Shown: positions 20,238-60,998 of the stretch, in pieces
How the letters are laid out: every line of letters starts with the position of its first letter
Numbering within the stretch: the first letter of the stretch is position 1
NCBI GenBank assembly: GCA_039819165.1
Contig: JBCBSM010000001.1
Location: 1-64,000, forward strand
Length of the DNA stretch: 64,000 bases
Origin: Planctomycetota bacterium
GTDB lineage: Bacteria > Planctomycetota > Phycisphaerae > Phycisphaerales > UBA1924
Reading direction: 5' to 3'
The notes under the pieces: model-generated
Told to the model about the DNA's origin: nothing
Seen by the model: only the letters and a program-made list of their open reading frames with translations
The model's database searches: none
Position numbers and translations under genes: made by a program

Positions 20238-20265
20238 GCTTGTAGAATGAAGGAAAATATTTGCT

Positions 20266-20625
20266 GTGAATGACCCTGATTTCTGTGGTATTTTAGAATA
20301 TTTTGTAAATAATATTGTTGGTTTTGAGATTAAGCGACCAGAGCTAGACCACTCTTGGTACTCTACAATAGTTCAAAGACATATTAAGCTATCGAGTGTT
20401 CTCTATCAGTACTTGGCAGCCGAGCCTGGTACTGGCACTATGGGCGCATCTGGTCAGTTGAATTCAGAGGAACTGACTCGTATCGGTGCTCTATGTGTAT
20501 GCAAAGCAATTTTGTCTGAACTATCGTGCGACACTATGTCAACGGCACAGTACTACATTATTGAGCAATCTACACAGTTGTGTGATAAATGGATCGAGTA
20601 TATAATTACATGTCCCAAACAGTAA
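20266..20625 (+). CDS. Putative immunity protein for the resident Rhs tip
   Basis: A 119-residue protein of no family I recognise, starting with GTG 28 bases after the rhs stop, with AAGGA about 11 bases upstream. It is acidic to neutral, helical in appearance (ELTRIGALCVCKAILSELSC), and has several Cys. Its codons are strikingly AT-rich against the GC-rich chromosome, which is typical of horizontally acquired immunity genes. Position immediately after a Rhs variable tip and before a silent tip is the standard place for the cognate immunity gene, so that role is inferred from context alone. Confidence 0.65.
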   Translation: MNDPDFCGILEYFVNNIVGFEIKRPELDHSWYSTIVQRHIKLSSVLYQYLAAEPGTGTMGASGQLNSEELTRIGALCVCKAILSELSCDTMSTAQYYIIEQSTQLCDKWIEYIITCPKQ

Positions 20626-20689
20626 GGCGATGCAGTAAAGTTTAAAAATAGTTTCAGCTCTATTCTTCGGCCAGTCACTTTCTGTTAAT

Positions 20690-20811
20690 GCGATCCGGCT
20701 GGCTACTTCGACGGAATGAACCTGTACGGGTACGGCGGGTCGAGCCCGTTCGTCTTCATGGATCCGTGGGGGCTCTTCCAGCAGGCCCAGGACTTCGTGC
20801 AGCAGTGGGGG
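20690..20811 (+). repeat. Rhs core-end direct repeat, copy 2 (head of the silent tip cassette)
   Basis: Second copy of the Rhs core end, beginning exactly at a sequence coding DPAGYFDGMNLYGYGG. A TAA codon (20686-20688) in the same frame lies directly before it, so the copy is not connected to an upstream reading frame. It has the same length (122 bases) and reading register as copy 1 at 19336. Recombination between the copies would delete 1,354 bases and fuse the second tip to the Rhs body in frame. Confidence 0.92.
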
Positions 20812-21618
20812 GCAAGCAACGAGGCCATCCAGTGGCAGACGGCGGAGTCGATGGCGGGATACTGGCGGGGCTACAACGACTACTTGAATCCCAGGCTGGC
20901 GATGGATGGCACGCCGCTCACGGCGGGCATGAAGGCCTCGCAGGCGAACTACAACAGGACGATCGCGCAGCAGCAGGGGATCGGCTCGGCCTCCCGGGCG
21001 GCGCAGCGGCAGATGATCGGGGAGATGGGCGTGGGGATGATCCCCGTCGTCGGCGAATTCATGGATTACCAGGTGATGACGGACCCCAACGCCGCGTGGT
21101 GGGAGCGCAGCCTGGCGGGCCTGAGCCTGGGCGTGAACTGCTTCACGGCGGGCCTGCTGCCCAACGCGGGGCCGATCATCCGATCGCTCAGGGCGGGCGA
21201 TGATTTCGCCGCCTACGCGGACGATATGATGGCGAGGGCGGGAGGTGTCGCGTCATCCGGAGTTGCTTCAAGAAGATTCTGGACTAAGTCCAAGATGTTT
21301 AATGGCAACAAGGTGTTCCAACGCGACGATCTGATCGATCCGAGTCGCGTTGATGCTCGAGGGCGAACAAATCTCGAGCGAATGCAGAGGGGACTAGCAC
21401 CGCTTGGTCCAGACAATAAGTCGATCAATCTGCATCACCTCACACAGACACAGGATGGTGCGATCGCGGAGGTGTCGCAGACATTCCACCAACAGAACTA
21501 TGGAACGCTACACATCAACCCGAATACAATTCCATCAGGAATCGATCGCATTGAGTTTAATGCTTGGCGGGACAAGTACTGGCGCGATCGTGCAAGAGAC
21601 TTTGAGGAATCGCCATGA
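20716..21618 (+). CDS. Silent Rhs C-terminal tip with LHH/HNH nuclease toxin domain
   Basis: An orphan Rhs tip of 300 residues. The first 32 residues duplicate the Rhs core end and junction (through FQQAQDFVQQWG). A helical region follows, then a pre-toxin-like hydrophobic segment (GMIPVVGEFMDYQVMTD, about residues 110-126). The C-terminal 65 residues match the LHH class of the HNH/Endo VII nuclease superfamily: NKSINLHHLTQ, a second part with FHQQNYGTLHIN, and basic helices (FNAWRDKYWRDRARDF). The ATG at 20716 is merely the Met inside the repeat; no Shine-Dalgarno is evident, so it is probably a stored, poorly or not translated cassette rather than a free protein. It overlaps its immunity gene by four bases. 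DNase activity is family-based. Confidence 0.85.
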   Translation: MNLYGYGGSSPFVFMDPWGLFQQAQDFVQQWGASNEAIQWQTAESMAGYWRGYNDYLNPRLAMDGTPLTAGMKASQANYNRTIAQQQGIGSASRAAQRQMIGEMGVGMIPVVGEFMDYQVMTDPNAAWWERSLAGLSLGVNCFTAGLLPNAGPIIRSLRAGDDFAAYADDMMARAGGVASSGVASRRFWTKSKMFNGNKVFQRDDLIDPSRVDARGRTNLERMQRGLAPLGPDNKSINLHHLTQTQDGAIAEVSQTFHQQNYGTLHINPNTIPSGIDRIEFNAWRDKYWRDRARDFEESP

Positions 21619-22088
21619 GTATGCAGGACTTCGAAGCAGCATGCGAGTTGATCAGGCGACATGAAGAGCTTGCGGATTTTGAGGGCCCTAAGCCAGATGA
21701 GTTATTAGCGAAAGCGGAAGCTGCGATTGGACTTTCATTTCCGGCTACCTACCGGGCGTTCTTGAGCAAGTTTGGATGCGGGGACATTGCTGGCGCTGAA
21801 TTTTATGGAATAATTAAAGATAACTTTGAAGAATCTGGTATACCAGATGCGATATGGTTAACATTAGATCAAAGAAAATCGTCGGAGCTTCCAAAATTCT
21901 ATATACTCATCGGAGATTCCGGGAACGGCGGATTATATGCAATCGATTGCTCGGTAATTTCCGTCGCGGAATGCCCAGTAGTAGAGTGGTGGGCTGGTGC
22001 GCAGGACCAAAGAACAGTTGCTGCAGATTTTGGCGATTTCTTTTTGCGCACTGTACGAGAGGCATTGCATAATCGGCGACTCTCGTAA
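21615..22088 (+). CDS. SUKH (SMI1/KNR4) family immunity protein
   Basis: A 157-residue protein of the SUKH-1/SMI1-KNR4 superfamily: an N-terminal helix pair, then LAKAEAAIGLSFPATYRAFL and KFGCGDIAGAEFYGI, the signature region of the fold, followed by FYILIGDSGNGGLYAIDC and a C-terminal helix (FGDFFLRTVREAL). These proteins neutralise nuclease toxins in polymorphic toxin loci and are the usual partners of HNH/LHH toxins. The ATG overlaps the stop of the LHH tip (ATGA), a classic toxin-immunity coupling. It is AT-richer than the chromosome. An in-frame ATG two codons downstream is the alternative start. Confidence 0.9.
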   Translation: MSMQDFEAACELIRRHEELADFEGPKPDELLAKAEAAIGLSFPATYRAFLSKFGCGDIAGAEFYGIIKDNFEESGIPDAIWLTLDQRKSSELPKFYILIGDSGNGGLYAIDCSVISVAECPVVEWWAGAQDQRTVAADFGDFFLRTVREALHNRRLS

Positions 22089-22162
22089 TGATAAAAAGCT
22101 GCCGCCTTCGAGAATCACGCCGTACGATCGTCGATGGTCCGACGGCTGAGTGCTTGCCACTA

Positions 22163-22326
22163 GACACGAACCGCGACGGCGAGGTGGTGTTGACCTTGTT
22201 TGGTTTCTGGCATTCCAGAACCTCTTCGAGGACGGCGACCCTATCGCCGGCTTCGACGCCGACGGCGAACTGACATTCTTCGACCTCCTCGCCTTCCAGA
22301 ACGCCTTCCCGGATGGATGCGAATGA
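22163..22326 (+). pseudogene. Broken GC-type dockerin C-terminus
   Basis: Read with one restored base near 22205-22210, this stretch codes two dockerin-like calcium loops in the order of the intact tails at 27569-29272 and 29405-31114: DTNRDGEV..LTLF, FLAFQNLFEDGD, then FDADGELTFFDLLAFQNAF and a terminal PDGCE before TGA (22324-22326). The frame is broken by loss of one base in the codons for the Phe-Leu of FLAFQ. The first 25 bases are identical to 19011-19035 inside the rhs gene. No start or signal sequence belongs to it, so it is the relic of the 3' end of an exported gene. Confidence 0.75.
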
Positions 22327-22383
22327 CGCGGCCGGCCGCGTCGTGGGCCGTGATCTCGGCCCCGCTCGCGCTACCTTAGCCGC

Positions 22384-24306
22384 ATGGCCAACAGACGCGA
22401 TGCGGCGGGTGGTGGGGCGGAGCGACCGGCGGGCGATCGGCCGTCGGGCCCGCTGGCGCGGTTCCTTGGCGTTGTCGAGTGGCTGGGCAACCTGCTGCCG
22501 CACCCGGTCACGCTGTTCGCGCTGCTCGCGCTAGCCATCGTGGTGATCTCGGCGATCGCGACCTTCCTCGAGGTCGGCGCGGATGATCCCCGCACGCTGG
22601 CCCCGAAGGCCGAGCTGACGGTCGTGTCCATCGCTGAGTCGGTTTCGCCGCCGATGCTCGTTGCCGAGAACAAGGACGAGAACTCGATCGCCTTCGACGT
22701 CCTCGACGATCCCGATGGCCGCCTGCACTCACTCATGGAGGTAACGCTCACCGTTTCCGGCGTGCGGTCCGCGCCGGACGACGAGCATCCCACCGTGACG
22801 TTCGAGAGCGACGAAGGCACGACGCTGGTTGCCAAGCAGCGCAACGCCCCCAGGCTCACCACGCAGAGCCTGCTGTCCGCCGCCGGTATCCGCTGGATCG
22901 GCCAGAACATCGTGACCAACTTCTCGAGCTTTGCACCGCTCGGCACCGTGCTGGTCGCACTGCTGGGCGTCGGCGTGGCGGAGAAGTCGGGCCTGCTGAC
23001 CGCGGTCGTGCGGGGGCTGGTGCTTGGTGCACCGCCGCGGCTGGTCACCGCGGTGGTCGTGTTCTGCGGCGTACTGAGCAACACGGCCAGCGAGATGGGC
23101 TACGTCGTGCTCATCCCGCTGGCCATGGCGATCTACCACGCGCTCGGACGCCATCCGCTGGCGGGCATGGCCGCCGCGTTCGCGGGTGTGTCGGGCGGGT
23201 ACAGCGCCAACCTGCTGATCGGCACGGTCGATCCGCTGCTGGCCGGCATCACCGAGGAGGCCGCGCAGCTCATCGATCCGGCCTACGAGGTGCACCCCGC
23301 GGTCAACTGGTGGTTCATGATCGCCAGCACGTTCCTCGTCACGGGCGTGTGCTGGGCGGTGTCCACCTTCATCGTCGAGCCGAGGCTCGGTGCGTACGAC
23401 CCGTCCGAAGCAGAGGACGAAGTGCGGCTGGCGTCGGCCGAATCCAAGGAGATGGCGCCCGTGTCGGCACAGGAGTGGCGGGGCGTCGCCTGGGCCGCGG
23501 CGAGCGCCCTCGTGGTCGCCGTGGGTATCGTCGTGCTGGCCGGCCCGGGGGGCGAGGCCGCCCGGAGCCTGCTGGGATGGCTGCCCGGGTGGGGCGTGCT
23601 CCGCAACCCCAACCCCGATGCGACCGGGGCCGAGGCCCTCCGCCCGCTGCTGCGGAGCGTGGTGCCGATGATCGTGGTCTTCTTCGTCGTGCCGGGCTTC
23701 GTGTACGGCCGCGTCGTCGGCACGATGCGGACCGATAGGGACGTGATCCACGCGATGGCCGACGCGATGCGGAGCATGGGGCTCTACATCGTGCTGGTCT
23801 TCTTCGCGGCCCAATTCGTGGCATTCTTCGGCTACTCGGGGCTGGGGCAGATCCTCGCGGTCAAGGGCGCGGACCTGCTCATCAGCCTGAATCTCGACAA
23901 CCCGCTGGTATTCCTGCCGTTCATCCTGATGTGCTGCTTCGTGAACCTGATGCTGGGGTCCGCCAGTGCGCAATGGGCGCTCACGGCGCCGATCTTCGTG
24001 CCGATGCTGATGACCATCGGCTACAGCCCCGAGGTGATCCAGGCGGCCTACCGCATCGGCGACAGCACGACCAACATCATCACGCCGATGATGAGCTACT
24101 TCGGGCTCATCCTCGCGGTCGCGACGCGGTACAAGCGGGATCTGGGCATCGGCACCATGATGGCGACGATGCTGCCGTACTCGATTGCGCTCATCATCGC
24201 GTGGACGGCGCTCTTCTACATCTGGGTGTTCGCGCTGGGAATTCCGGTGGGCCCGGATGCGCCCACGACCTACGACATCACGGCGCCGCTCGGTTCGGGC
24301 GGCTAG
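22384..24306 (+). CDS. AbgT-family transporter
   Basis: A 640-residue polytopic membrane protein matching the AbgT (p-aminobenzoyl-glutamate transporter) family: an N-terminal VEWLGNLLPHPVTLFALLAL helix, IVTNFSSFAPLGTVLVALLG, then GYVVLIPLAMAIYHALGRHP, AAAFAGVSGGYSANLLIG, and near the end SASAQWALTAPIFVPMLM followed by IGDSTTNIITPMMSYFGLIL. Family members import p-aminobenzoyl-glutamate or export sulfonamide-like antimetabolites. Compared with E. coli AbgT, about 80 extra soluble residues (roughly 62-140) sit after the first helix. The TAG stop shares bases with the stop of the convergent kinase gene (CTAG, 24303-24306). No strong Shine-Dalgarno is seen; it stands alone as a transcript. Confidence 0.9.
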   Translation: MANRRDAAGGGAERPAGDRPSGPLARFLGVVEWLGNLLPHPVTLFALLALAIVVISAIATFLEVGADDPRTLAPKAELTVVSIAESVSPPMLVAENKDENSIAFDVLDDPDGRLHSLMEVTLTVSGVRSAPDDEHPTVTFESDEGTTLVAKQRNAPRLTTQSLLSAAGIRWIGQNIVTNFSSFAPLGTVLVALLGVGVAEKSGLLTAVVRGLVLGAPPRLVTAVVVFCGVLSNTASEMGYVVLIPLAMAIYHALGRHPLAGMAAAFAGVSGGYSANLLIGTVDPLLAGITEEAAQLIDPAYEVHPAVNWWFMIASTFLVTGVCWAVSTFIVEPRLGAYDPSEAEDEVRLASAESKEMAPVSAQEWRGVAWAAASALVVAVGIVVLAGPGGEAARSLLGWLPGWGVLRNPNPDATGAEALRPLLRSVVPMIVVFFVVPGFVYGRVVGTMRTDRDVIHAMADAMRSMGLYIVLVFFAAQFVAFFGYSGLGQILAVKGADLLISLNLDNPLVFLPFILMCCFVNLMLGSASAQWALTAPIFVPMLMTIGYSPEVIQAAYRIGDSTTNIITPMMSYFGLILAVATRYKRDLGIGTMMATMLPYSIALIIAWTALFYIWVFALGIPVGPDAPTTYDITAPLGSGG

Positions 24307-46829: not shown

Positions 46830-47911
46830 GGCAGCACTCTCTCGATGAGCCGGGCCACCGCGGCGGACAGCCCGTCGTGCGGTAGCAGGAAGGCGTCGTG
46901 CCCGTCGACCGAGGGCAGCAACTCCCACGACGCCGCAAGCCCCGCGTCTCGTGCGGCCGCCGCCAGCTCCTCGCCCTGCCGCGGCGGGAAGAGCCAGTCC
47001 GAATCGAACGAGGCGATGAGCACGTCCGCAGATGCACGCGACAGGGCGTTCGACAGCGATGCGTGCCCCGCCAACGCGTCGTACTGGTCCATGGCGTCCA
47101 GCAGCACGCGATAGCTCGCGGGCTCGAAGCGACCCTCGAAGCTGCGGCCGCGGTGGTGGAGGTATCGATCGACCTCGAATCCGCCGTCGTCCGCGCGTCG
47201 CCGGGCAAACTTGGCGTCGAAGGCCTCCGACGTCCTATACGTTAGGTGGGCGAGCTGCCGCGCCAACGCCATGCCGCTCTGCCCCGGCGCCGCATCGCCG
47301 GGCACCGCGCCGAGCACCCGCCGGGCGATCGAGTTGAATGCCAGCCCGAACGCACCCAGCGACGCGCCCGAGGCGATGATCCCCGCCGCCCGCACCCGGA
47401 CCGGATCCTGCACCGCCCACTCGATGGCCTGGAAGCCGCCGATGGACCCGCCCAGCACGACGAGCGGACCCCGGATGTCCAGCGCATCGACCAGCCGGAT
47501 CTGGGCGGCCACCATGTCGCGGATCGTGACGGGTGGGAACGCGTCGCCGTACGCCCGCCCCGTTGCCGGGTCGGTGCTCCCCGGTCCCGTCGAGCCCGAG
47601 CATCCGCCCAGCACGTTCGCGCACAGCACGCGGACGCGCCCGGTGTCGACCGCCAGGCCCGGGCCGATCAGCGTGTCCCACCAACCAGGACGGTCTTCCG
47701 GTTCGTGGCCGGTTGCATGCGCATCGCCCGTGAGCGCATGGCACGCGACGACCGTGACGGGCGCGGCCTCCGGGCCGACCAGCTCGTATGCCAGTTCGGC
47801 GTGGTCGAGCCTGCCGCCGAGTTCCAGCGCGAGCGGCCGCCCGGGCGCGGCGACGGCAACCGTGCCCGCTGCGCGATCGATCCGCCGCACGGACGGTGCC
47901 GTGGCGCTCAC
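46826..47911 (-). CDS. metX: Homoserine O-acetyltransferase
   Basis: A 361-residue alpha/beta-hydrolase-fold acyltransferase that activates homoserine with acyl-CoA. It has the family motif [14 protein letters not shown], the nucleophile elbow [12 protein letters not shown], the Asp region ([20 protein letters not shown]) and the catalytic His in SVDGHDAFL. The GTG start at 47911 overlaps the metY stop (GTGA). The frame is open far upstream into metY, but those residues are non-native reading of that gene. Whether acetyl- or succinyl-CoA is used cannot be told by eye, though pairing with metY favours O-acetylhomoserine. Confidence 0.93.
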
Positions 47912-49215
47912 GGTTGCGACGCCGCCAGCGCCTGGTCGATGTCGGCCAGGATGTCGTCGAGGTTCTCCAGCCCGACCGACAGCCGCACGTATTCGGGCGT
48001 CACGCCGGTCCGCTCCTGCTCCTCGGGCGTGAGCTGCGAGTGCGTCGTCGTCGCCGGGTGGATCGCCAGGCTCTTGGCGTCGCCGATGTTCGCCAGATGG
48101 CTGAACAGCCGCGTGTGCTCGATGAATGCCTTGCCCGCCTCGGCCCCGCCGCGGATGCCGAATCCCACGATCCCGCCGTAGCCCCCGGTCAGGTAGCGAT
48201 TGGCCAGCCCGTGCGAAGGATGCGATTCGAGCCCCGCGTAGTTGACCCATTCCACCGCCGGGTGGGCTTCCAGGTGGCGGGCGACCGCGAGCGCATTCTC
48301 GGTGTGCCGAGGCAGGCGGAGGTGCAGCGTCTCCAGGCCCTGGATGAACTGGAAGGACCCGAACGGGCTGAGCGTGCCGCCGAGGTCCCGGAGCAGATGC
48401 GTCCGGGCCCGGATGATGTACGAGATGTTCCCCAGCGGCGCGAGCGCCTCGGCCAGCACGATGCCGTGGTACGACGGATCGGGCTCGGTGAACTCGGGCC
48501 AGCGGCTCGCCTCGTGCGTCCAGTCGAAGCGGCCCGAATCTACGATCGCCCCGCCGATGTGCGTGCCGTGGCCGCCCAGGAACTTGGTGAGGCTGTAGAC
48601 CGCGATATCGATGCCGTGGTCGAAGGGCCTGAACAGCGCGGGCGTCAGTGCCGTGTTGTCGGCGATCAGCGGCACGCCGATGCCATGAGCGGCCTCCGCC
48701 AGTCGCTCGAAGTCGGGGATGTCGTTCTTGGGGTTGCCGATGGTCTCGATGTAGACCGCCCGCGTCCGCGCGTCGGCGAGCTCGGCGATCCGCTCGGGCT
48801 CGGACGGGTCGAAGAACCGCACCTCGATGCCGAACCGCTTGAACGTCTGGCTGAACAGCGTCCAGGTGCCCCCGTACAGGCTGGTGCCGCTGATGATGTT
48901 GTCGCCCGCGCGGGCGATGTTCAGGATCGAGTAGAGGATTGCCTGCTGACCGCTGGAGACCGCCAGCGCGCCGACGCCGCCGTCGAGCGCCGCCAGTCGC
49001 TTCTCGAGCACGTCGGTCGTGGGGTTCATCAGCCTGGAATAGATGAACCCGAACTTCCGCAGCGCGAACAGGTCGGCCGCGTCGGCGGTGTCCTCGAAGA
49101 CGTAACTGGTCGTGGCGTGGATCGGCACCGCCCGCGACTTGGTCGTCGGATCGACCTCCTGGCCCGCGTGCAACGCGAGCGTGCCGAGGTCGGCGTGCTG
49201 CTGGATCGTGGTCAT
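47908..49215 (-). CDS. metY: O-acetylhomoserine sulfhydrylase (aminocarboxypropyltransferase)
   Basis: A 435-residue PLP enzyme of the Cys/Met metabolism family: [20 protein letters not shown], the [14 protein letters not shown] segment, [46 protein letters not shown] and the PLP-Lys in [11 protein letters not shown]. Length and the [10 protein letters not shown] and [10 protein letters not shown] motifs fit O-acetylhomoserine sulfhydrylase, which makes homocysteine directly from sulfide. AAGGAA precedes the ATG. The 60-base leader holds a tandem 9-bp repeat. Gene order with metX and an aspartokinase-homoserine dehydrogenase fixes the pathway. Confidence 0.94.
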
Positions 49216-49232
49216 GGCGTGTTCCTTTCGGT

Positions 49233-49259
49233 GGGGGTGTCGGGGGTGTCGGGGGTGTC
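49233..49259 (-). repeat. Three perfect tandem copies of a 9-bp unit in the metY leader
   Basis: GGGGGTGTC is repeated three times on the plus strand (GACACCCCC on the coding strand), followed by a partial fourth unit. It lies between the fused aspartokinase gene stop (49275) and the metY start, just upstream of the metY ribosome-binding site. Confidence 0.85.
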
Positions 49260-49274
49260 GGGGATGCGGCCGGC

Positions 49275-51050
49275 CTACGCGCCGGCGGGAGTCGCCAGCG
49301 GCGCATCCGAGGCGGCAGAGGTTCGATCGGCGCGATGCGGATCGGACGCCGCCCGCACGAGTTCGGCGACGTCCGCGACGACGGCTTCGGTTGTGGGCCA
49401 TCGCCCGGCGCCGGCCGCGGCCGCGGTCACCGGCGGACTTCCGTCAGCCAGGGCAATCTCGATGGCGTTCCACGCGCCCGGCAGTTCGGCAAGGAGTCGA
49501 TCCGTTGCGGACTCGAACCGGACCGATGCCCGGCCCTCGGAATCGACCCGCGCGATCTGCCGGAGCGGGCCGTCGGCGATCGACCGCGAGATAACCTCGT
49601 CGGTGAGCGGCTCCCGCTCGATCAGCGCCGGGTCGAGTTCGAGCCCGAAGGCCTCGCGCGCCAGGATCGCCAGCTTCTGCGCCGCGTCATCGCCGGAGAG
49701 ATCGAGCGACGGGTCCGCTTCGGCGTATCCGGCGAGCTGCGCGGCGCGGATGGCCTCTTCCAGGCCAACCGGGGTCGTGCCGGCGTTCGCCGTCCTGTTC
49801 AGGAGGTCGTTGCACGTGCCGTTGAGCACCGCGCGGATCGATGCGATCGGCCCGCGTTCTCGTGCCGCCCGCACGAGTTCGATGGCCGGCAGCGCGCCGC
49901 CGACCGCCGCCGAGTGCAGCAGCTGCGCGCCGTGCTCCCGTGCGATCGCGTGCAGCCTTGCGCCGTCCGATGCGATGAGCGCCTTGTTGGCGGTCACCAC
50001 GCTGCGGCCGCCGGCGAGCGCGCGCTCGACCAGGTCGGCCGCGAGCGTGGTCCCCCCGATGAGTTCGATGACGACGTCCGGATCGGTCGCGAAGGCGTCG
50101 TCGGGGTGGTCGGTGATCCGCACCGTGGGCGGCAGGCCCGGCCGGGCGATGGCCGCATCCCGCACGAGCGCAATCTCGACGCCGTGCCGGCGGGGCTCCC
50201 GCGCCAGCCGCCGCGCCACGCCCAGCCCCACCGTGCCGATCCCGAGCAATGCGATCCGCACCGGGCGCTCGGGCGCGGAGTCCAGGCGATGGCCCTCCGC
50301 CGCGAGCCGGCTGGCCTTCCGGGTGATGCTCGTCCCCGCATCGCTCCCCGGTGCGACCACCGAGAGACGCACCGCGGTCTTCTCGGCGTGCTCCACGGCA
50401 CGCGGCTGCACCGCCTGCCGGCCGACGACCAGCGCGTCCGCATACGAGATGCCTTGGTAGCGCCCGGGTGCGTCGGCGGCGACGGCGGGGTCCCGCTCGT
50501 AGACGCCGCCGACGTCCTTGATGAGGTGGACCTCCGCGTCGAGCGCGGCGCCGAGCGCGACGGCCGTTAGGTCGCTACCCCCACGCCCCAGCACCGCGGG
50601 CGAGCCGTCGGGCGCGGCGGCGACGTAGCCGGGCACGACCGCAACGCGACCATGTGCCAGGGCGCCTCGGACGGCCGCGGCGTCCACGCCAGCCACCCCC
50701 GCATTGGTCCCCGTCTCTGTGGCCCGCAGGCCGGCGGTCCTCCAGTCGAGCAGCGAGGCCGGAAGCCCCGCGTTGCCGAGCGCCGCGGCCAGGAGCGCCG
50801 CCGTCTCGGCCTCGCCCAGCCCGATCACGCCCGCCGCCGCCGGCGAGTTCGCGTCCAGATCGCACGCCGCCGCGTGCGCGATGAGGGTATCGGTGCGACC
50901 CCGGAAGGCCGACACCACCGCGACGACCCGCCGCCCCAGCCGCAGGTGCCGGTAGATCTCCGAGACGGCGAGTGGTACGTCCGCCGGCCCGCGGAGCACC
51001 GAGCTGCCGAACTTGAGAACATAAGGAGTGTCGGTGATCGTGGCTGGCAT
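49275..51050 (-). CDS. Fused aspartokinase-homoserine dehydrogenase lacking ACT domains
   Basis: A 591-residue fusion. The aspartokinase half (1-250) starts [15 protein letters not shown], with [52 protein letters not shown] and [10 protein letters not shown]. The homoserine dehydrogenase half (about 265-570) has the Rossmann start [31 protein letters not shown], the [10 protein letters not shown] motif, [31 protein letters not shown] with the catalytic Lys. ThrA and MetL of E. coli are about 810-820 residues because two ACT domains sit between the halves; here they are absent, so feedback control by threonine or lysine would be missing. The start MPATITDT was chosen for family fit. It heads the met operon. 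Confidence 0.9.
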
Positions 51051-51223
51051 CGCGCGTCTCGCTTGCGTTGCCGCGGCGCGGTGGCGCGCCGCGTGGTTCG
51101 CGTCTTGTGTCCTGTTGATGGCGCGTAGCGCACCGATAGCGCCACGTCGGTCGGGACGTGCTCTCTCGTGCTCGGAGCGTCCGTACGCGGGGGCGGCCGA
51201 CTGGTGGGTGATGCCAAACGACA

Positions 51224-51294
51224 AGCACCACCGCCGATGCCCGGACGGTGGTGCTCAGGTCTCTACCCTGAACTGGAGACGCGGCTATGGAGCC
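51224..51294 (-). ncRNA. Structured 5' leader of the aspartokinase-metYX-asd operon (class unknown)
   Basis: Read on the coding (minus) strand, this leader has a small stem AGCC/GGCT pair (51283-51294), two interlocking pairings, GTCTC/GAGAC (51259-51263 with 51276-51280) and TCAGG/CCTGA (51255-51259 with 51267-51271), which can form a pseudoknot or mutually exclusive hairpins, and finally a perfect 10-bp stem (51224-51233 with 51246-51255) with a 12-base loop. It ends about 170 bases before the aspartokinase start. No SAM, SAH or lysine riboswitch consensus is recognised. A regulatory role is inferred from structure and position. It could instead belong to the divergent plus-strand transcript. 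Confidence 0.4.
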
Positions 51295-53188: not shown

Positions 53189-53318
53189 CCTCCCAGGCCG
53201 TCGATCGACCGGCCGCCGCTTGAACAGCCCGCACCGCGGTGGTACAACCGCGAGTGGAGTCGGGCCCCGATTGGTCCGAAAACACACGAGATCGCCCGAT
53301 CCGGGCCCGGAGGCTTCC

Positions 53319-56300
53319 ATGCGCACCGCATTGCTCGCCCTGGCGTGCTCGCTGGCGTCCACGGCGTGGGCGTGGCAGGACCAACGCCCGCCGCTCGTGA
53401 CCGTCGCCGAGGCCACCGGCTACCAGAAGACCGGCACTTCCGCCGACGTCGAGGCCTTCCTCCGCGAACTGCACGCCGAGAGCGACCGCACGTGGCTTGG
53501 CTCCATCGGGCAGTCCAACGAGGGCAAGGACCTGCCGCTGCTGGTCGTGGCCGACCCGCCGATCGCCAGCCCCGCCGAGGCGCGCGAGAGCGGCAAGCTC
53601 GTTGTGCTGCTCTTCGGCAACATCCACTCGGGCGAGACCTGCGGCAAGGAGGCGCTCCAGATGCTCGCGCGGGAGCTCGCGCTGGGCGAGCCGTCCGAGC
53701 TGCTCGACGACCTCATCGTGTGCTTCGTGCCCAACTACAACCCCGACTCCAACGACAAGATGGCCGCCGACAACCGCCCGGGGCAGGACGGCCCCGACGA
53801 GATGGGCCTGCGCGCCAACGCCCAGGGGCTCGACCTCAACCGCGACTGGATCAAGATGGAAGCGCCCGAGACGCGCGCCCTCGTGCGGTTCATGCGGCAC
53901 TGGGACCCCGCGGTCATCGTCGACTCGCACACCACCAACGGCTCCAACCACCGCTACACGCTCACCTACCAAGGGCCCAAGCACCCCGCGAGCCATCCGG
54001 ACCTCGTCGAGTTCGTCCGCGACAGCTTCCTACCCGAGATCGACCAGCGCTTCGAGGACCAGACCGACTACAACGCATTCGTCTACGGCAACTTCGCCGA
54101 CGGGCACACCAAGTGGACGACCTACCCCGCGTGGCCCCGCTATGGCGCGGCCTATCGCGGCCTGCGCAATCGCGTATCGATCCTGTCGGAGGCATACTCG
54201 TACGCGAGCTTCGAGGATCGCGTGCTCGCCACGCTCGAGTTCTGCCGCGCGGTCCTGCAGGAATCGGTCGAGCACCAGGCCGCCATCCGCCGCGCTATCG
54301 CGGCCGCCGACGGGTTCAACGACACCGACTCAGCGCGGACCGTCGCCCTCCGCGAGCGCGCCGTCGCGTTCCCGGGCACGCTCTCGGTGCTGGGCTACCA
54401 GGAGTACGACGACGAGGGCAACCGCGTCGCCGCGACCGACGAGGAGCGGACCTACGAGGTCCAGCTCATCAACGATTTCGAGCCCACGCTCAGCGTGCAG
54501 CGGCCGTGGGCCTACCTCATCCCCGCCGACCTCGCCGAGATCACGACGCACCTGCAGCGGCACGGCATAGAGGTGCACGAGGTCCGCGAGGGCATGGAGC
54601 TCGACGCCGAGACCTACCGCATCGACGAGGTCACGCAGTCCGCCCGGGAGTTCCAGGGCCACCACATGCTCGACATCGCGCGGGTCACGCCGCGGACGCG
54701 GGGCGTGCGGATCGAGCCGGGCTGGAGCTTGGTTCGGACCGAGCAACCGCTGGGCAACCTGGCGGCATACATGCTCGAGCCGCAGGCGACCGACGGCCTG
54801 GCGAGCTGGAACTTCCTCGACGAGCACCTGTTCGACGGGGATGTCAGGCCCGGCGGCACCTTCCCGATCTACCGCCTGCCCGAGCCGGCGCCCATCCTGG
54901 CCCGTGCCGCTCGTCCACTGGCCGAGGACCGCGAGCCGCCCAAGCGGATGACCGCGGACATGGTCGTGCACCGCCGCAACCCGCCCCCGTTGAGCGGGCC
55001 GGGCGGGGCGCAGCTCCGCTGGCTCGACGACGAGCACCTCGCCAAGACGGTGCCGGGCATCCCCGGCACCTTCCGCGTGCACGCCGAGACCGGCCGGCCC
55101 GTCGATGCCGAGCCCGAGCGGGACTGGCGGGCGGTCGCCGACACGATCGCCGAGCTGCCGACCATCGATGACGAGCGCGCCCAGCGGGTCGCCCGCAGCG
55201 GCTATCGCTTCCCGCGGGAGGACGGCCTCGTCTTCGAGCACGCCGACGACCTGTACTACGTCTCGCCCTCGGGCGATGCCGCGGTCCGGCTGACCGCCAC
55301 GCCCGAGTCCGAGCAGACCTGGTCGCTGAGCCCCGACGGTGAGTTCGTCGCCTACATCCGCGACAACGACCTCTGGGTCGTCGACGTCGCGACGCAGACC
55401 TCCCGCGCCCTGACCACCGGCGGCACCGACACCATCCGCAACGGCCGCGCGAGCTGGCTCTACTTCGAGGAGCTCTTCGGCCGCAGCTGGAAGGCCTACT
55501 GGTGGAGCCCCGACTCCCGCCACATCGCCTACCTCGTAACCGATAGCTCGGCCGTGCCGACGTATACCATCGTCGATAACCAGCGCCGCGAGCAGGTCAT
55601 CGAGGTCGAGCGGTACGCCCGTCCGGGCGAGCGGAACCCGAGCGTGGAGCTGGGCATCGTGTCCCGCGACGGCGGCGCCTCGCGGTTCGCCGACCTGTCG
55701 GGCTACGACGACGGCCTCTTCCTGATCAGCCACGTCTCGTGGACGCCCACCAGCCGCAACTGCGTGGTCCACGTGCAGGACCGCATCCAGACCTGGCTCG
55801 ATGTCCTGCACGTATCCAACCGCGGCGGTGCGCCCCGGACGCTCTTCCGCGACCGCACCGAGGCATGGATCACTTCGCCCGGCGACGCGATCTACCTCGA
55901 GGATCACAGCTTCCTGATGTCGTCGGAGCGCGACGGCTTCGAGCATCTCTACCACTACAACAGCCGCGGCAAGCTCATCCGCCAGGTCACCGAGGGCGAC
56001 TGGGAGTGCCGCAGCGTGCTCCGCATCGACGAGGACAACGGCTGGATCTACTTCACGGGCACGACCAACTCGCACATCGGCAGCGATCTCTACAAGATCC
56101 GCCTCGACGGCAGCGAGCTGACGCGGCTGACGCACGAGCGCGGCACGCACTCGGTCCGCCTCAACCCGTCGGGCACGATGTTCATCGATTCGTGGTCGAC
56201 GATGCACCAACCCACGCGGGTCGCCCTCCGCTCGACGGTCGACGGCGCCCTCATCCGCTGGCTGGATACCAACCCGGTCTACGAGATCGAGGATTACGAC

Positions 56301-57152
56301 CTCGGGCGAATCGAGCACGTCACGATCCCCACGCGGCACGATGGCATCGAGCTCGAGGGCATCCTGCACTATCCGCCGGACTTCGATCCCACGCGGACCT
56401 ACCCCATCTGGGTGATGACCTACGCCGGCCCGCACGCGCCGACGGTCCGCGACAGCTGGCAGCGTGGCCGCACGTGGGAGCAACTGCTGTGCTCGGCGGG
56501 CATCGTCGTGCTCCGCACCGATCCCTACCCCGCCAGCGGCAAGGGCGCACGGAGCGCATGGACGACCTACCTCAACATGGGCGTCCGCGAGCTGCAGGAC
56601 CTCGAGGACGCCGTCCGCTGGGTGCTGCGGAATGACTGGGCCGACGCGTCCCGCGTGGGCATCAACGGCCATTCCTTCGGCGGGTACATCACCGCCTATG
56701 CGCTCACGCACAGCACCTTGTTCAGTGCCGGCATCGCCGGTGCGCCCGTGACCGACTGGCGGGACTACGACACCATCTACACCGAGCGGTACATGTCGAC
56801 GCCCCAGGCCAACCCCGAGGGCTACCGGCGGACCAGCGCGGTCGAGGGCGCGGGCAACCTGCACGGGCGGTTGCTCATCGCGCACGGCACCATCGACGAC
56901 AACGTGCACCTGCAGAACTCCATCCTGCTGATCTCTGCCCTCCAGCGGGCCAACAAGCTGTTCGAGACCGCGATCTACCCCGGCAGCCGCCATGGCATCT
57001 GGTCCCGCCAGTACCGCATGCTGCAGTGGGACTTCATCAAGCGGACCATGGGCGTCGACGAGCCGACCGAGTACGAGGTGCCCGAGTGGCCCACGATCGA
57101 CTCGCGGCCCCACGAGGCCGCAACGGGCTTGCAGGGGCCGAGCGATCGCTAG
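53319..57152 (+). CDS. Secreted fusion of M14 carboxypeptidase and S9B dipeptidyl peptidase IV
   Basis: A 1,277-residue exported protein with GGAGG six bases before the ATG and a signal peptide (RTALLALACSLASTAWA). Residues about 25-380 are an M14 zinc carboxypeptidase: metal ligands His103/Glu106 in IHSGETCGKEAL, His204 in DSHTTNG, and general base Glu291 in SILSEAYSYASFED. From about 600 on is a DPP IV-type peptidase: beta-propeller with the N-terminus-binding Glu pair in WLYFEELFGRSWKAYWWSPD (about 708-727) and an alpha/beta hydrolase with Ser1119 (NGHSFGGYI), Asp1193 or 1194 (HGTIDDNVH) and His1225 (GSRHGI). One chain could thus trim peptides from both ends. This domain union is unusual to me; both sets of catalytic residues look intact. 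Confidence 0.9.
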   Translation: MRTALLALACSLASTAWAWQDQRPPLVTVAEATGYQKTGTSADVEAFLRELHAESDRTWLGSIGQSNEGKDLPLLVVADPPIASPAEARESGKLVVLLFGNIHSGETCGKEALQMLARELALGEPSELLDDLIVCFVPNYNPDSNDKMAADNRPGQDGPDEMGLRANAQGLDLNRDWIKMEAPETRALVRFMRHWDPAVIVDSHTTNGSNHRYTLTYQGPKHPASHPDLVEFVRDSFLPEIDQRFEDQTDYNAFVYGNFADGHTKWTTYPAWPRYGAAYRGLRNRVSILSEAYSYASFEDRVLATLEFCRAVLQESVEHQAAIRRAIAAADGFNDTDSARTVALRERAVAFPGTLSVLGYQEYDDEGNRVAATDEERTYEVQLINDFEPTLSVQRPWAYLIPADLAEITTHLQRHGIEVHEVREGMELDAETYRIDEVTQSAREFQGHHMLDIARVTPRTRGVRIEPGWSLVRTEQPLGNLAAYMLEPQATDGLASWNFLDEHLFDGDVRPGGTFPIYRLPEPAPILARAARPLAEDREPPKRMTADMVVHRRNPPPLSGPGGAQLRWLDDEHLAKTVPGIPGTFRVHAETGRPVDAEPERDWRAVADTIAELPTIDDERAQRVARSGYRFPREDGLVFEHADDLYYVSPSGDAAVRLTATPESEQTWSLSPDGEFVAYIRDNDLWVVDVATQTSRALTTGGTDTIRNGRASWLYFEELFGRSWKAYWWSPDSRHIAYLVTDSSAVPTYTIVDNQRREQVIEVERYARPGERNPSVELGIVSRDGGASRFADLSGYDDGLFLISHVSWTPTSRNCVVHVQDRIQTWLDVLHVSNRGGAPRTLFRDRTEAWITSPGDAIYLEDHSFLMSSERDGFEHLYHYNSRGKLIRQVTEGDWECRSVLRIDEDNGWIYFTGTTNSHIGSDLYKIRLDGSELTRLTHERGTHSVRLNPSGTMFIDSWSTMHQPTRVALRSTVDGALIRWLDTNPVYEIEDYDLGRIEHVTIPTRHDGIELEGILHYPPDFDPTRTYPIWVMTYAGPHAPTVRDSWQRGRTWEQLLCSAGIVVLRTDPYPASGKGARSAWTTYLNMGVRELQDLEDAVRWVLRNDWADASRVGINGHSFGGYITAYALTHSTLFSAGIAGAPVTDWRDYDTIYTERYMSTPQANPEGYRRTSAVEGAGNLHGRLLIAHGTIDDNVHLQNSILLISALQRANKLFETAIYPGSRHGIWSRQYRMLQWDFIKRTMGVDEPTEYEVPEWPTIDSRPHEAATGLQGPSDR

Positions 57153-57314: not shown

Positions 57315-60300
57315 ATGAACCTCGTGGTGGTGTGTGCGGCCGGTGCGTTGGCCGCGAGCGCGGGCAAGGCAATCGCCCAGAATCAGCCCGATGCGGGCAT
57401 GCTGCGTTATCCGGACGTCAGCGGCGAGCACATCGTGTTCGTCTATGCCAACGACCTGTGGGTCGTCGATCGCAGCGGCGGCACCGCCCGGCCGCTCGCC
57501 AGCCCGCCCGGTGCCGAGGCCTTCCCCCGCTTCAGCCCCGACGGCTCCGAGATCGTCTTCCAGGGCAACTACGACGGTGATCGCGACCTGTACGTCGCGG
57601 GTCTCGACGGTGGCGTGCCCCGCAGGCTCACGCACCATCCCGCGAACGAGACGCCCACCGACTGGGACGCCGACCGCGGCATCATCTTCCACCGCAACGG
57701 CCGCAGCGGGCAGGCGCGGCAGCAGCAGCTCTACGCGGTGTCGCCCAAGGGCGGCAACCCAACCAAGCTGCCGCCGGCCTATGGCGCCAATGGCGCCATC
57801 CACGGCGACTGGCTCGCCTACACGCCCAACCAGCGGGACTTCCGCACCTGGAAGCGATACCGCGGCGGCATGGCGTCGGACGTCTGGCTCTTCAACCTCG
57901 AGTCCCTCGAGAGCGAGCAGATCACGACGTGGGAGGGCACCGACACGCTGCCCATGTGGCACGACGGCACGGTCTACTACCTCTCCGACGCCGGCCCCGA
58001 GCACCGCCTCAACATCTGGTCCTACGACCCCGATACCGGCGACCGCGAGCAGGTCACCGACTATCGCGACTACGACGTCAAGTTCCCCTCGATCGGTCCG
58101 GGGACGGACGGCCGCGGCGAGATCGTCTTCCAGAACGGGCCGGAGATCTTCCTGCTCGATCTGCGGCTGGGTCGCGCCCGCAGCGTGTCGATCACGATCC
58201 CCGGCGCCAAGCCCTCGGTGCGGCCGCGGATGGTCGATGCCGCGTCGCAGCTTCAGGCCGGCGGAATCAGCGCGACCGGCAAGCGGGCCGTCGTGGAGGC
58301 GCGAGGCGACATCTGGACGATCCCCGCCAAGGCCGGCGCCCCCCGCCAGCTGACCGACAGCTCGCGCTACGCCGAGCGGAGCCCCGCCTGGAGCCCCGAC
58401 GGCCGCTGGATCGCCTACTTCTCCGATGAGAACGGCGAGTACAACCTCTACGTCACCCAGTCCGACGGCAAGGGCGAGACCCGCCGCCTGACCAACACCA
58501 GCGAGAACTACTTCTTCGACATCGCCTGGTCGCCCGACAGCGAGACGATCCTCTTCAACGACAAGGCCGGCCGCATCCACGCCGTCGACCTCGAGTCGGG
58601 CGAACGGACCGAGATCGATCGCGACGAGATGGCGGGCCGGCCCACGCTGAGCTGGTCGTCCGACAGCCGGTGGATCGCCTACGACAAGACCGACCCGGGC
58701 AACCTCGTGACCGCGGTCTGGATCTACGACACCGAGTCGGGCGAGCGTCGGCAGGTCACCAGCGGCTACTTCAACGACTCCGACCCGGCATTCGCCAACG
58801 ACTACCTCTACTACGCATCCATGCGGCAGTTCACCTCGCCCCGCTACGAGGACGTCGGGTCGACCTTCGTCTACGCCGGCACCGAGGTGCTCATCGCCGT
58901 GCCGCTGAACGGCGACGTCGAGAACCCGATGCTCATCGAACCCGACGAGGAATCCTGGAACGAGGACGAAGCCACGGACGAGGAGGACGCCGGCGACGAG
59001 GACGCAACGGACGAGAATGCCGACGATGACGCCGACGCAAGCCCCATCGATGGCACCTGGTCGGGCACGGCCACGGGCCTCTCCGCGCTCGGACTGCCCG
59101 ACGACCAGCTCGAGTTCACCATGTATATCCGCCGCAACGACGACGGAGGCTACGTGGGTGCGAGCGAGAGCCAGGGCCAGCTCAACCAGTACGATTCGGT
59201 GACCTTCGACGAATCCACGGGCACGCTCACGACCTCGCGTGCCGATGGCCCCATCACCACGACCATGACCGGCATGCTCAGCGGCGAGTCGCTGAGCGGC
59301 ACCTGGACGATCGCCGGCCCCATCAGCGGCTCCGGCAGCTTCACGGCAACCCGCACCTCCGCGAGCGTCGCCGACGGCAAGATCGATGATGACGCCGGCA
59401 GCGGCGGGAGCGGCGATCCCGTCGAGATCGACTTCGACGGCTTCGAGGCCCGTGGCATGCAGTTGCCCGTAGCCGCCGGCTCCTTCAACGGCCTGCGGAC
59501 CAACGACCGCGGCGACCTGCTGTACAACAGCTTCGCCCAGGGCGCCCCGCCCAGCGTCAAGCTCATCAATGCGGGCGACGACGAGCCCCAGGAGAAGACC
59601 GTCGTGACCGGCGCCGCCCTCGTGGGCCTCTCGGGCGATGGCAAGAAGGCGCTGCTCGCCGCGGGCAACCGCTGGAAGATCGCCGACGCCCGCCCGGGCC
59701 AGAACATGAGCGAGGCCCTCGTGCCCCGCGACCTCAACAAGATGCTCGACCCCCGCGAGGAGTGGCGGCAGCTCGTCCGGGATGCCTGGCGCCGCCACCG
59801 CGACTTCTTCTACGTCGACAACATGCACGGCGTTGATTGGGACGCCATCTACGACCGCTACAGCCGCATGGTCGACGACGCCGCGAGCCGCGAGGACGTG
59901 AGCTTCATCATCGGCGAGATGATCAGCGAGCTCAACGTCGGCCACGCCTACTACTCGGGCGGCGACGTCGATGGCCAGCCCAGCCGCAACGTCGGCATGC
60001 TCGGCGTCGACTTCGAGCTCGCCGAACAAGATGGCCAGGTCGGCTACCGCATCGCCCGCATCTACAAGGGCGCCACGTGGGACTCCGACGCCCGCAACCC
60101 GCTCACGCACCATGGCATGGATGTCGAGGTCGGCGACTTCGTGACCCACGTCAACGGCAGCCGCATCGATACCAGCAAGGACCCGTGGGCGGCCTTCGTC
60201 GGCACTGCCGGCAAGGACACCACGCTCACGATCGCCGATGCGATCGCCGGCGACGACGACGCTCGCAACGTCCGCGACTACACCATCAAGCCGCTGGGCA

Positions 60301-60998
60301 GCGACCAGTACCTTCGCTACCGGGACTGGGTCGAGCAGAAGCGGGCCCACGTCGATGAGGCGTCGGGCGGCGCCATCGGCTACATCCACGTGCCCGATAC
60401 CGGCGTCAACGGCCAGAATGAACTGTTCCGCCAGTTCTATGGCCAGATCGGCAAGGACGCCCTGATCATCGACGACCGCTGGAACGGCGGCGGCCAGATC
60501 CCTACGCGGTTCATCGAACTGCTCAACCGCCCGCGCACCAACTACTGGTACCGCCGCGACGGCGCCGACTGGGCGTGGCCCTACGACAGCCACCAGGGCC
60601 CCAAGGCCATGCTCATCAACGGGCAGGCCGGCTCGGGCGGCGACATGTTCCCGTGGCTCTTCCGCCACAACAACCTTGGCAAGCTCATCGGCCGGCGGAC
60701 GTGGGGCGGTCTCGTTGGCATCTCGGGCGTGCCACCGCTCATCGACGGCGGCTACACCGCCGTGCCCAACTTCGGCTTCTACGAGGCCGACGGCACCTGG
60801 GGCGTCGAGGGCCACGGCGTCGACCCCGACATCGAAGTCATGGACGATCCCACGCTGCTCGCACGCGGCCAGGACCCACAGCTCGATGCGGCCATCGAGC
60901 ACCTCAAGGCCGAGATCAAGCAGCGCGGCTACGAGCCCCCGCGCCGCCCGGCGCCGCCCAACCGCCGCGGCATGGGCCTGCGGGACGCCGACAAGTAG
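57315..60998 (+). CDS. Secreted tricorn-type S41 peptidase with a novel insert
   Basis: A 1,227-residue tricorn-protease homolog with AGGAG seven bases before the ATG and a signal peptide (LVVVCAAGALAASAGKAIAQ). Beta-propeller blades cover about 20-540 (PRFSPDGSEIVFQGNYDGDR, SPAWSPDGRWIAYFSDENGE). An Asp/Glu-rich segment (about 542-575) and a beta-rich insert (about 578-690) follow, then the core with LNVGHAYYSGGD (His877), a PDZ-like domain (GMDVEVGDFVTHVNGSRID) and the catalytic Ser1107 in NGQAGSGGDMFPW. Tricorn proteases degrade peptides downstream of other peptidases; in this genome it is exported and sits 163 bases after the carboxypeptidase-DPP IV fusion, suggesting a shared peptide-utilisation role (inference). 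A strong terminator follows. Confidence 0.93.
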   Translation: MNLVVVCAAGALAASAGKAIAQNQPDAGMLRYPDVSGEHIVFVYANDLWVVDRSGGTARPLASPPGAEAFPRFSPDGSEIVFQGNYDGDRDLYVAGLDGGVPRRLTHHPANETPTDWDADRGIIFHRNGRSGQARQQQLYAVSPKGGNPTKLPPAYGANGAIHGDWLAYTPNQRDFRTWKRYRGGMASDVWLFNLESLESEQITTWEGTDTLPMWHDGTVYYLSDAGPEHRLNIWSYDPDTGDREQVTDYRDYDVKFPSIGPGTDGRGEIVFQNGPEIFLLDLRLGRARSVSITIPGAKPSVRPRMVDAASQLQAGGISATGKRAVVEARGDIWTIPAKAGAPRQLTDSSRYAERSPAWSPDGRWIAYFSDENGEYNLYVTQSDGKGETRRLTNTSENYFFDIAWSPDSETILFNDKAGRIHAVDLESGERTEIDRDEMAGRPTLSWSSDSRWIAYDKTDPGNLVTAVWIYDTESGERRQVTSGYFNDSDPAFANDYLYYASMRQFTSPRYEDVGSTFVYAGTEVLIAVPLNGDVENPMLIEPDEESWNEDEATDEEDAGDEDATDENADDDADASPIDGTWSGTATGLSALGLPDDQLEFTMYIRRNDDGGYVGASESQGQLNQYDSVTFDESTGTLTTSRADGPITTTMTGMLSGESLSGTWTIAGPISGSGSFTATRTSASVADGKIDDDAGSGGSGDPVEIDFDGFEARGMQLPVAAGSFNGLRTNDRGDLLYNSFAQGAPPSVKLINAGDDEPQEKTVVTGAALVGLSGDGKKALLAAGNRWKIADARPGQNMSEALVPRDLNKMLDPREEWRQLVRDAWRRHRDFFYVDNMHGVDWDAIYDRYSRMVDDAASREDVSFIIGEMISELNVGHAYYSGGDVDGQPSRNVGMLGVDFELAEQDGQVGYRIARIYKGATWDSDARNPLTHHGMDVEVGDFVTHVNGSRIDTSKDPWAAFVGTAGKDTTLTIADAIAGDDDARNVRDYTIKPLGSDQYLRYRDWVEQKRAHVDEASGGAIGYIHVPDTGVNGQNELFRQFYGQIGKDALIIDDRWNGGGQIPTRFIELLNRPRTNYWYRRDGADWAWPYDSHQGPKAMLINGQAGSGGDMFPWLFRHNNLGKLIGRRTWGGLVGISGVPPLIDGGYTAVPNFGFYEADGTWGVEGHGVDPDIEVMDDPTLLARGQDPQLDAAIEHLKAEIKQRGYEPPRRPAPPNRRGMGLRDADK

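Follow-up and report, generated by a model that had tools for sequence, protein, structure and literature searches.

An M14 carboxypeptidase module joined to a DPP IV-type peptidase in a putatively exported protein of Planctomycetota

Our analysis shows that one gene of a Planctomycetota contig, located at 53319..57152 on the forward strand of the window (the whole stretch of 64,000 nucleotides that was analysed), encodes an M14 carboxypeptidase module and a DPP IV module in a single chain. The open frame runs from the ATG at 53319 to the TAG at 57150-57152 and specifies 1277 amino acids, and full-length homologues were found. A preliminary description had proposed this architecture, together with the M14 zinc ligands and Glu and the DPP IV Glu pair and Ser-Asp-His triad. 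The open frame, the Pfam domains and the folds bear out the first proposal, and alignment finds every one of these catalytic residues in place. We consider it reasonably probable that the fusion is an exported bifunctional exopeptidase of Planctomycetota, holding two co-required digestive activities in one chain. The C-terminal DPP IV module would cleave Xaa-Pro (or Xaa-Ala) dipeptides off the N-terminal end of peptides, and the N-terminal M14 module would remove single residues from peptide C-termini. Their join would then tie the two co-required digestive activities to one export event, a fixed ratio and neighbouring active sites.

The ATG is preceded, 5 nt upstream, by a Shine-Dalgarno-like GGAGG read in the sequence (53309..53313, +). 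Residues 1-20 (53319..53378, +) form a hydrophobic N-terminus which, from hydropathy and by eye, we regard as a putative Sec signal peptide; its best 12-residue hydropathy mean is 1.88, the lowest among 23 rows (the top value being 3.23). A hydrophobic N-terminus was found in all 22 full-length fusions of the window's family, judged by hydropathy with no threshold and from hand-chosen starts (in L013 there is no Met at the start used). On this hydrophobic N-terminus, export of the fusion protein is likely, and one exported protein trimming peptides at both ends is a plausible reading of the sequence. Pfam recognises Peptidase_M14 at residues 45-206 (63.3 bits, cut-off 21.6), DPPIV_N at 645-965 (263.1 bits) and Peptidase_S9 at 1055-1236 (146.4 bits), the latter two also above their cut-offs, and the predicted model of residues 26-1225 has a pLDDT of 90.1.

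The M14 catalytic domain covers residues 26-325 (53394..54293, +), as delimited by the Pfam match, the model of residues 26-526 and the fold match. This model (pLDDT 94.9) has the carboxypeptidase fold: among the fold matches listed, carboxypeptidases A/B match model residues 1-296 with Z of 25-27 and rmsd of 2.3-3.0 over about 250 residues. The HxxE...H zinc ligands of Peptidase M14 are present, the putative ligands being H103 and E106 (53625..53636, +) and H204 (53928..53930, +), all found in 39/40 fusions and 26/26 stand-alone M14 proteins. The predicted catalytic Glu, E291 (54189..54191, +), assigned by alignment and the family motif, occurs in 40/40 and 26/26, respectively. The window protein also has R153, N174 and R175; for these three, as for the zinc-binding role of H103, E106 and H204 and the catalytic role of E291, we assume the functions of the M14 family. 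A beta-rich accessory domain follows (residues 326-520; 54294..54878, +), delimited by the secondary structure of the model and by the matches of stand-alone M14 proteins, which reach residues 500-550 and thus contain it as well. Solved enzymes give weak sequence matches to this half, the best being a carboxypeptidase D chain at 4.8e-7; the Pfam match at 45-206 leaves some of the domain uncovered, and this half lacks near relatives among solved structures.

The M14 family includes known wall-peptide enzymes. One could therefore imagine that the M14 module has cell-wall peptides, or some other substrate that is not a protein, as its target, and that a wall or amide hydrolase has been paired with the DPP IV. 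The NCBIfam murein tripeptide amidase model does leave a trace match of 13.3 bits, far under its cut-off of 157, but the fold matches are carboxypeptidases (best 50 listed) and the co-occurrence with DPP IV speaks for a common diet of peptides, so that we regard such a wall-directed role as quite improbable.

The DPP IV module occupies residues 546-1240 (54954..57038, +), with a phmmer match to 5yp1 at 4e-99 and a Foldseek match to 2ecf at TMt 0.82. Pfam finds both the DPPIV_N propeller and the Peptidase_S9 domain expected of DPP IV (S9B), and alignment finds the double Glu and the Ser-Asp-His triad. The pair E717-E718 (55467..55472, +), the double Glu by which DPP IV enzymes hold the N-terminus of the substrate, the predicted nucleophile S1119 in GHSFGG (56673..56675, +) and the triad residues D1193 (56895..56897, +) and H1225 (56991..56993, +) can be aligned with their counterparts in 5yp1 (Pseudoxanthomonas) and 2ecf (Stenotrophomonas), and each is found in 40/40 fusions. 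The window protein also has all residues of the DPP IV S1/proline pocket, at positions that we transferred from human DPP4 on the assumption that they correspond: Y1150, Y1154, N1195 and V1196 are present in 40/40 fusions, W1147 in 39/40 and V1144 in 32/40 (Pro in 8). Scores against lasso peptide isopeptidase (NF033523, 76.8 bits) and dipeptidyl-peptidase 5 (NF053518, 67.6 bits) fall below the curated cut-offs of 400 and 900, respectively.

The two halves meet at residues 521-545 (54879..54953, +), approximately where stand-alone M14 proteins end and DPP IV homology starts. Of the 26 stand-alone M14 proteins read, 25 end 21-59 residues past the W497 position; matches of stand-alone DPP IV start at residues 460 to 671 and cluster at 515-545 where the N-terminus aligns. 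Since these ends and starts meet, the join appears near-seamless, with a linker of perhaps 20 residues. Other long M14 frames were seen. In L139 (G225), the one exception among those 26, the M14 frame continues past the usual end into a stretch with LFNGKDLTGW that resembles DUF1080, presumably making another M14 fusion. A 1306-aa frame in G070, considered as a further M14-DPP IV fusion, was rejected, as it is a stand-alone M14.

Could an assembly or sequencing error have joined two genes? We give this a negligible probability. Uninterrupted frames over both modules were found in 40 fusions in distinct contigs, with identity down to 34% (L007-L028, L038-L041, L043-L047, L049, L066, L074, L119, L129, L130 and L133-L135; second copies of contigs were excluded from this set, which was used for trees and residue counts). 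The recurrence of this join at 34-77% identity goes beyond what chance would give. Moreover, the single-contig genomes G067 and G192 carry the fusion, and another copy lies on a 4.8 Mb contig (L044). The 40 frames rule out an assembly or frameshift artefact, and with it the assembly error on which the preliminary description would have been abandoned.

The fusion is widespread in the window's family and occurs outside it. Full-length matches were found in at least 22/100 family genomes, the window's own included; G008 and G078 are fused too, their copies being cut by contig ends, which brings the fused genomes to 24/100. The sample of 392 genomes of the phylum yielded at least 12 with a full-length match; seven of these belong to six families other than the window's own. 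These counts of full-length matches are lower bounds, because distant fusions split into two matches (for example in G491). From the named collection we examined 15 of the 80 returned loci, those with a match start before residue 400, and 14 of them have one uninterrupted frame over both modules, the exception being L048. Four of these 14 (L037, L038, L040 and L042) are contigs also present in the genome sets. The 14 are filed under Planctomycetota, Phycisphaerales, Gemmata/Gemmataceae, Isosphaeraceae, Pirellulaceae, Mariniblastus, Pirellula and one Verrucomicrobia MAG. The L043 fusion belongs to Gemmata sp. IIL30, whose record carries no metagenome-assembly mark. Among the matches listed for the phylum of G484 (filed Vicinamibacterales; 247 genomes, E<=1e-70, two candidates per genome) no row covers both modules, and the same holds for that of G486 (filed Chitinophaga; 148 genomes, E<=1e-110, four candidates). 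Of 145 genomes in the phylum of G485, G485 alone showed the fusion, on a contig of 10 kb that is filed as Verrucomicrobia (L039), which points to transfer or contamination. No plasmid record had a single place covering 80% of the window protein.

Many relatives have two separate genes instead of the fusion. A search with the M14 module (E<=1e-30) detected this M14 subfamily in 47/100 family genomes, with one copy in each, 24 fused and 23 free; "free" was called from the match end, and the sequence was read for 9 of the 23 (L032-L036, L150, L155, L156 and L177). Under independence, 5.5 genomes with both a fused and a free M14 would be expected and none was seen (hypergeometric 0.0007, relatedness ignored); outside the family, G283 is an exception that has both. 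A free DPP IV (E<=1e-50, a line chosen after the list was seen) was found in 1/24 fused, 19/23 free-M14 and 9/53 M14-less family genomes, with at most 11 candidates scored per genome and G041 counted from the full-protein search. The difference between free-M14 and M14-less genomes has p=8e-8 (relatedness ignored), and with the first genome per genus the figures are 17/20 and 8/38, respectively (p=3.6e-6, uncorrected beyond genus). A hand recount at 1e-40 gave 2/24, 21/23 and 13/53. One free-M14 genome outside the 19, G002, carries an M14-less remnant of the fusion. Two genes and one fused gene appear to be alternative forms of a single functional pair, and this distribution is the pattern expected if both activities are needed together. 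More tentatively, both sites of an exported two-ended exopeptidase might work on the same proline-rich peptide, with lineages switching between the fused form and two genes; we see this more specific scenario as possible rather than probable. G285 (L136, 4836-8867) has an M14 gene and, 93 to 141 nt further on in the same orientation (depending on the start), a separate DPP IV-type gene; the DPP IV of this unfused pair is distant in the DPP tree.

The catalytic residues are strongly conserved in both modules. The DPP IV set (E717, E718, S1119, D1193 and H1225) is complete in 40/40 fusions and in 3/3 partial proteins, and the M14 set (H103, E106, R153, N174, R175, H204 and E291) in 39/40 fusions. 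Purifying selection acts on both modules, as dN/dS is low in nine pairs (0.08-0.33 for M14 and 0.07-0.34 for DPP IV, by a simple Nei-Gojobori style count). In L134 (7013-10537, G332), Arg, Asp and Arg replace the three zinc ligands and Pfam M14 no longer reaches E 0.001, with DPP IV intact; by its residues this is a predicted natural single-activity variant. In L031 and L048 the M14 catalytic domain is absent and the last part of the M14 module is retained before DPP IV. In the DPP tree all three group within the main fusion clade, and they therefore look like losses of M14, by deletion in L031 and L048 and by decay in L134. No other M14 of this subfamily was found at E<=1e-15 in G332 and G1031, two of the three M14-loss genomes.

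These cases raise an alternative, namely that DPP IV does the work and M14 is chiefly an appendage, structural or substrate-steering, with optional catalysis. Such an appendage would account for the three M14 losses with DPP IV kept, for the whole DPP IV set in every fusion and partial protein, and for the last M14 part left in L031 and L048; yet it sits poorly with the full M14 set in 39/40 fusions and with the low M14 dN/dS, and we hold it to be unlikely. What the losses do suggest is that C-terminal trimming is not always needed and that the two ends are not equally indispensable in appearance, the DPP IV seeming to be the indispensable half. Our searches turned up no fusion with an inactivated DPP IV, but most of them reward DPP IV similarity and are biased against such proteins. 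The bifunctional exopeptidase stays our preferred reading, with the M14 activity as the half that some lineages may have given up; besides these losses, the two forms side by side in G283, the unconserved gene neighbourhood and the mixing of fused and free forms in the M14 tree count against it.

The history of the join was approached with two quick trees. For the DPP tree, 127 rows were extracted (L085 was excluded as too short), 18 from L090-L116 were dropped and 109 were used. In this tree 34 fusions form one clade with L031 and L048 (SH-aLRT 95), and six fusions fall outside it (L045, L046, L047, L066, L074 and L135); the AU test does not reject a tree that unites all 43 fused and partial rows (p-AU 0.109). 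In the M14 tree (66 rows) the fused and free forms interleave, and the AU test rejects grouping the 40 fusions in a single clade (p-AU 1.5e-5), which indicates that fission, repeated fusion or domain exchange happened. One early fusion with later fission and repeated fusion are both possible.

The gene neighbourhood of the fusion is not conserved. A tricorn-type protease gene lies directly downstream in the window (57315-60998, +; PD40, Tricorn_C1, PDZ_Tricorn and Peptidase_S41). As a conserved partner it is unsupported, since no tricorn gene stands beside the fusion in 29 loci (flanks of up to 10 kb per side), bar a weak 30% fragment in L118; of these loci, L136 is unfused, and L038 and L131 represent the same contig. 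Among the same 29 loci, the neighbouring aminotransferase and sulfotransferase genes come back in L119 alone, which is of the same genus. Elsewhere in the window, an amino acid kinase and a homoserine dehydrogenase share one frame (47908-51224, -) by a Cys/Met metabolism PLP enzyme. G+C falls to 0.529 at 20001-22000, the rest of the window ranging from 0.598 to 0.730, and no Rfam family was found in 18000-24000.

New protein architectures of planctomycetes have reportedly been described by Mahajan et al. Both enzyme families are known separately. No description of their fusion was found in one open-access library, a weak negative, as subscription papers or domain-architecture databases may list it. 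Passages of one article (PMC8567305) do not mention an M14-DPP IV fusion. The preliminary description would also have been refuted by the architecture proving common and described; it is indeed not rare, in the family and in the six others, while in that library a description was not found. If our reading is true, two exopeptidases that are usually studied apart become linked, and a testable case of enzyme fusion is at hand, in which fused and separate forms alternate within one family and natural single-activity variants exist. In that case the fusion would further shed light on peptide feeding by planctomycetes and provide a ready two-ended peptide trimmer.

Compared with known systems, the window protein shares with the M14 metallocarboxypeptidases A/B and CPD/CPN the fold, the HxxE and His zinc ligands and the catalytic Glu. 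It differs from them by an identity of 14-22%, by the beta-rich accessory domain that follows and by the fused DPP IV. Much closer are the stand-alone M14 proteins of Planctomycetota and of genomes filed as Acidobacteriota, with about 37-51% identity over the M14 module, accessory domain included; unlike the fusion, nearly all of them end shortly after the W497 position, as described above. With the bacterial DPP IV (S9B; 5yp1 and 2ecf), the fusion has in common the propeller and alpha/beta-hydrolase, the Glu pair, the triad and the YDxxYTERYM pocket, but it carries a carboxypeptidase module of about 520 residues in front. Immediately before the catalytic Ser, 26/40 fusions have His (6/40 have Trp), whereas 52/84 stand-alone DPP IV relatives have Trp. 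Finally, the DPP tree places the stand-alone DPP IV loci L059, L060 and L063 of Planctomycetota as the nearest sisters of the main fusion clade; unlike the fusions, they have no M14 in the locus, and both genomes tested (G492 and G493) carry a separate M14 at another place.
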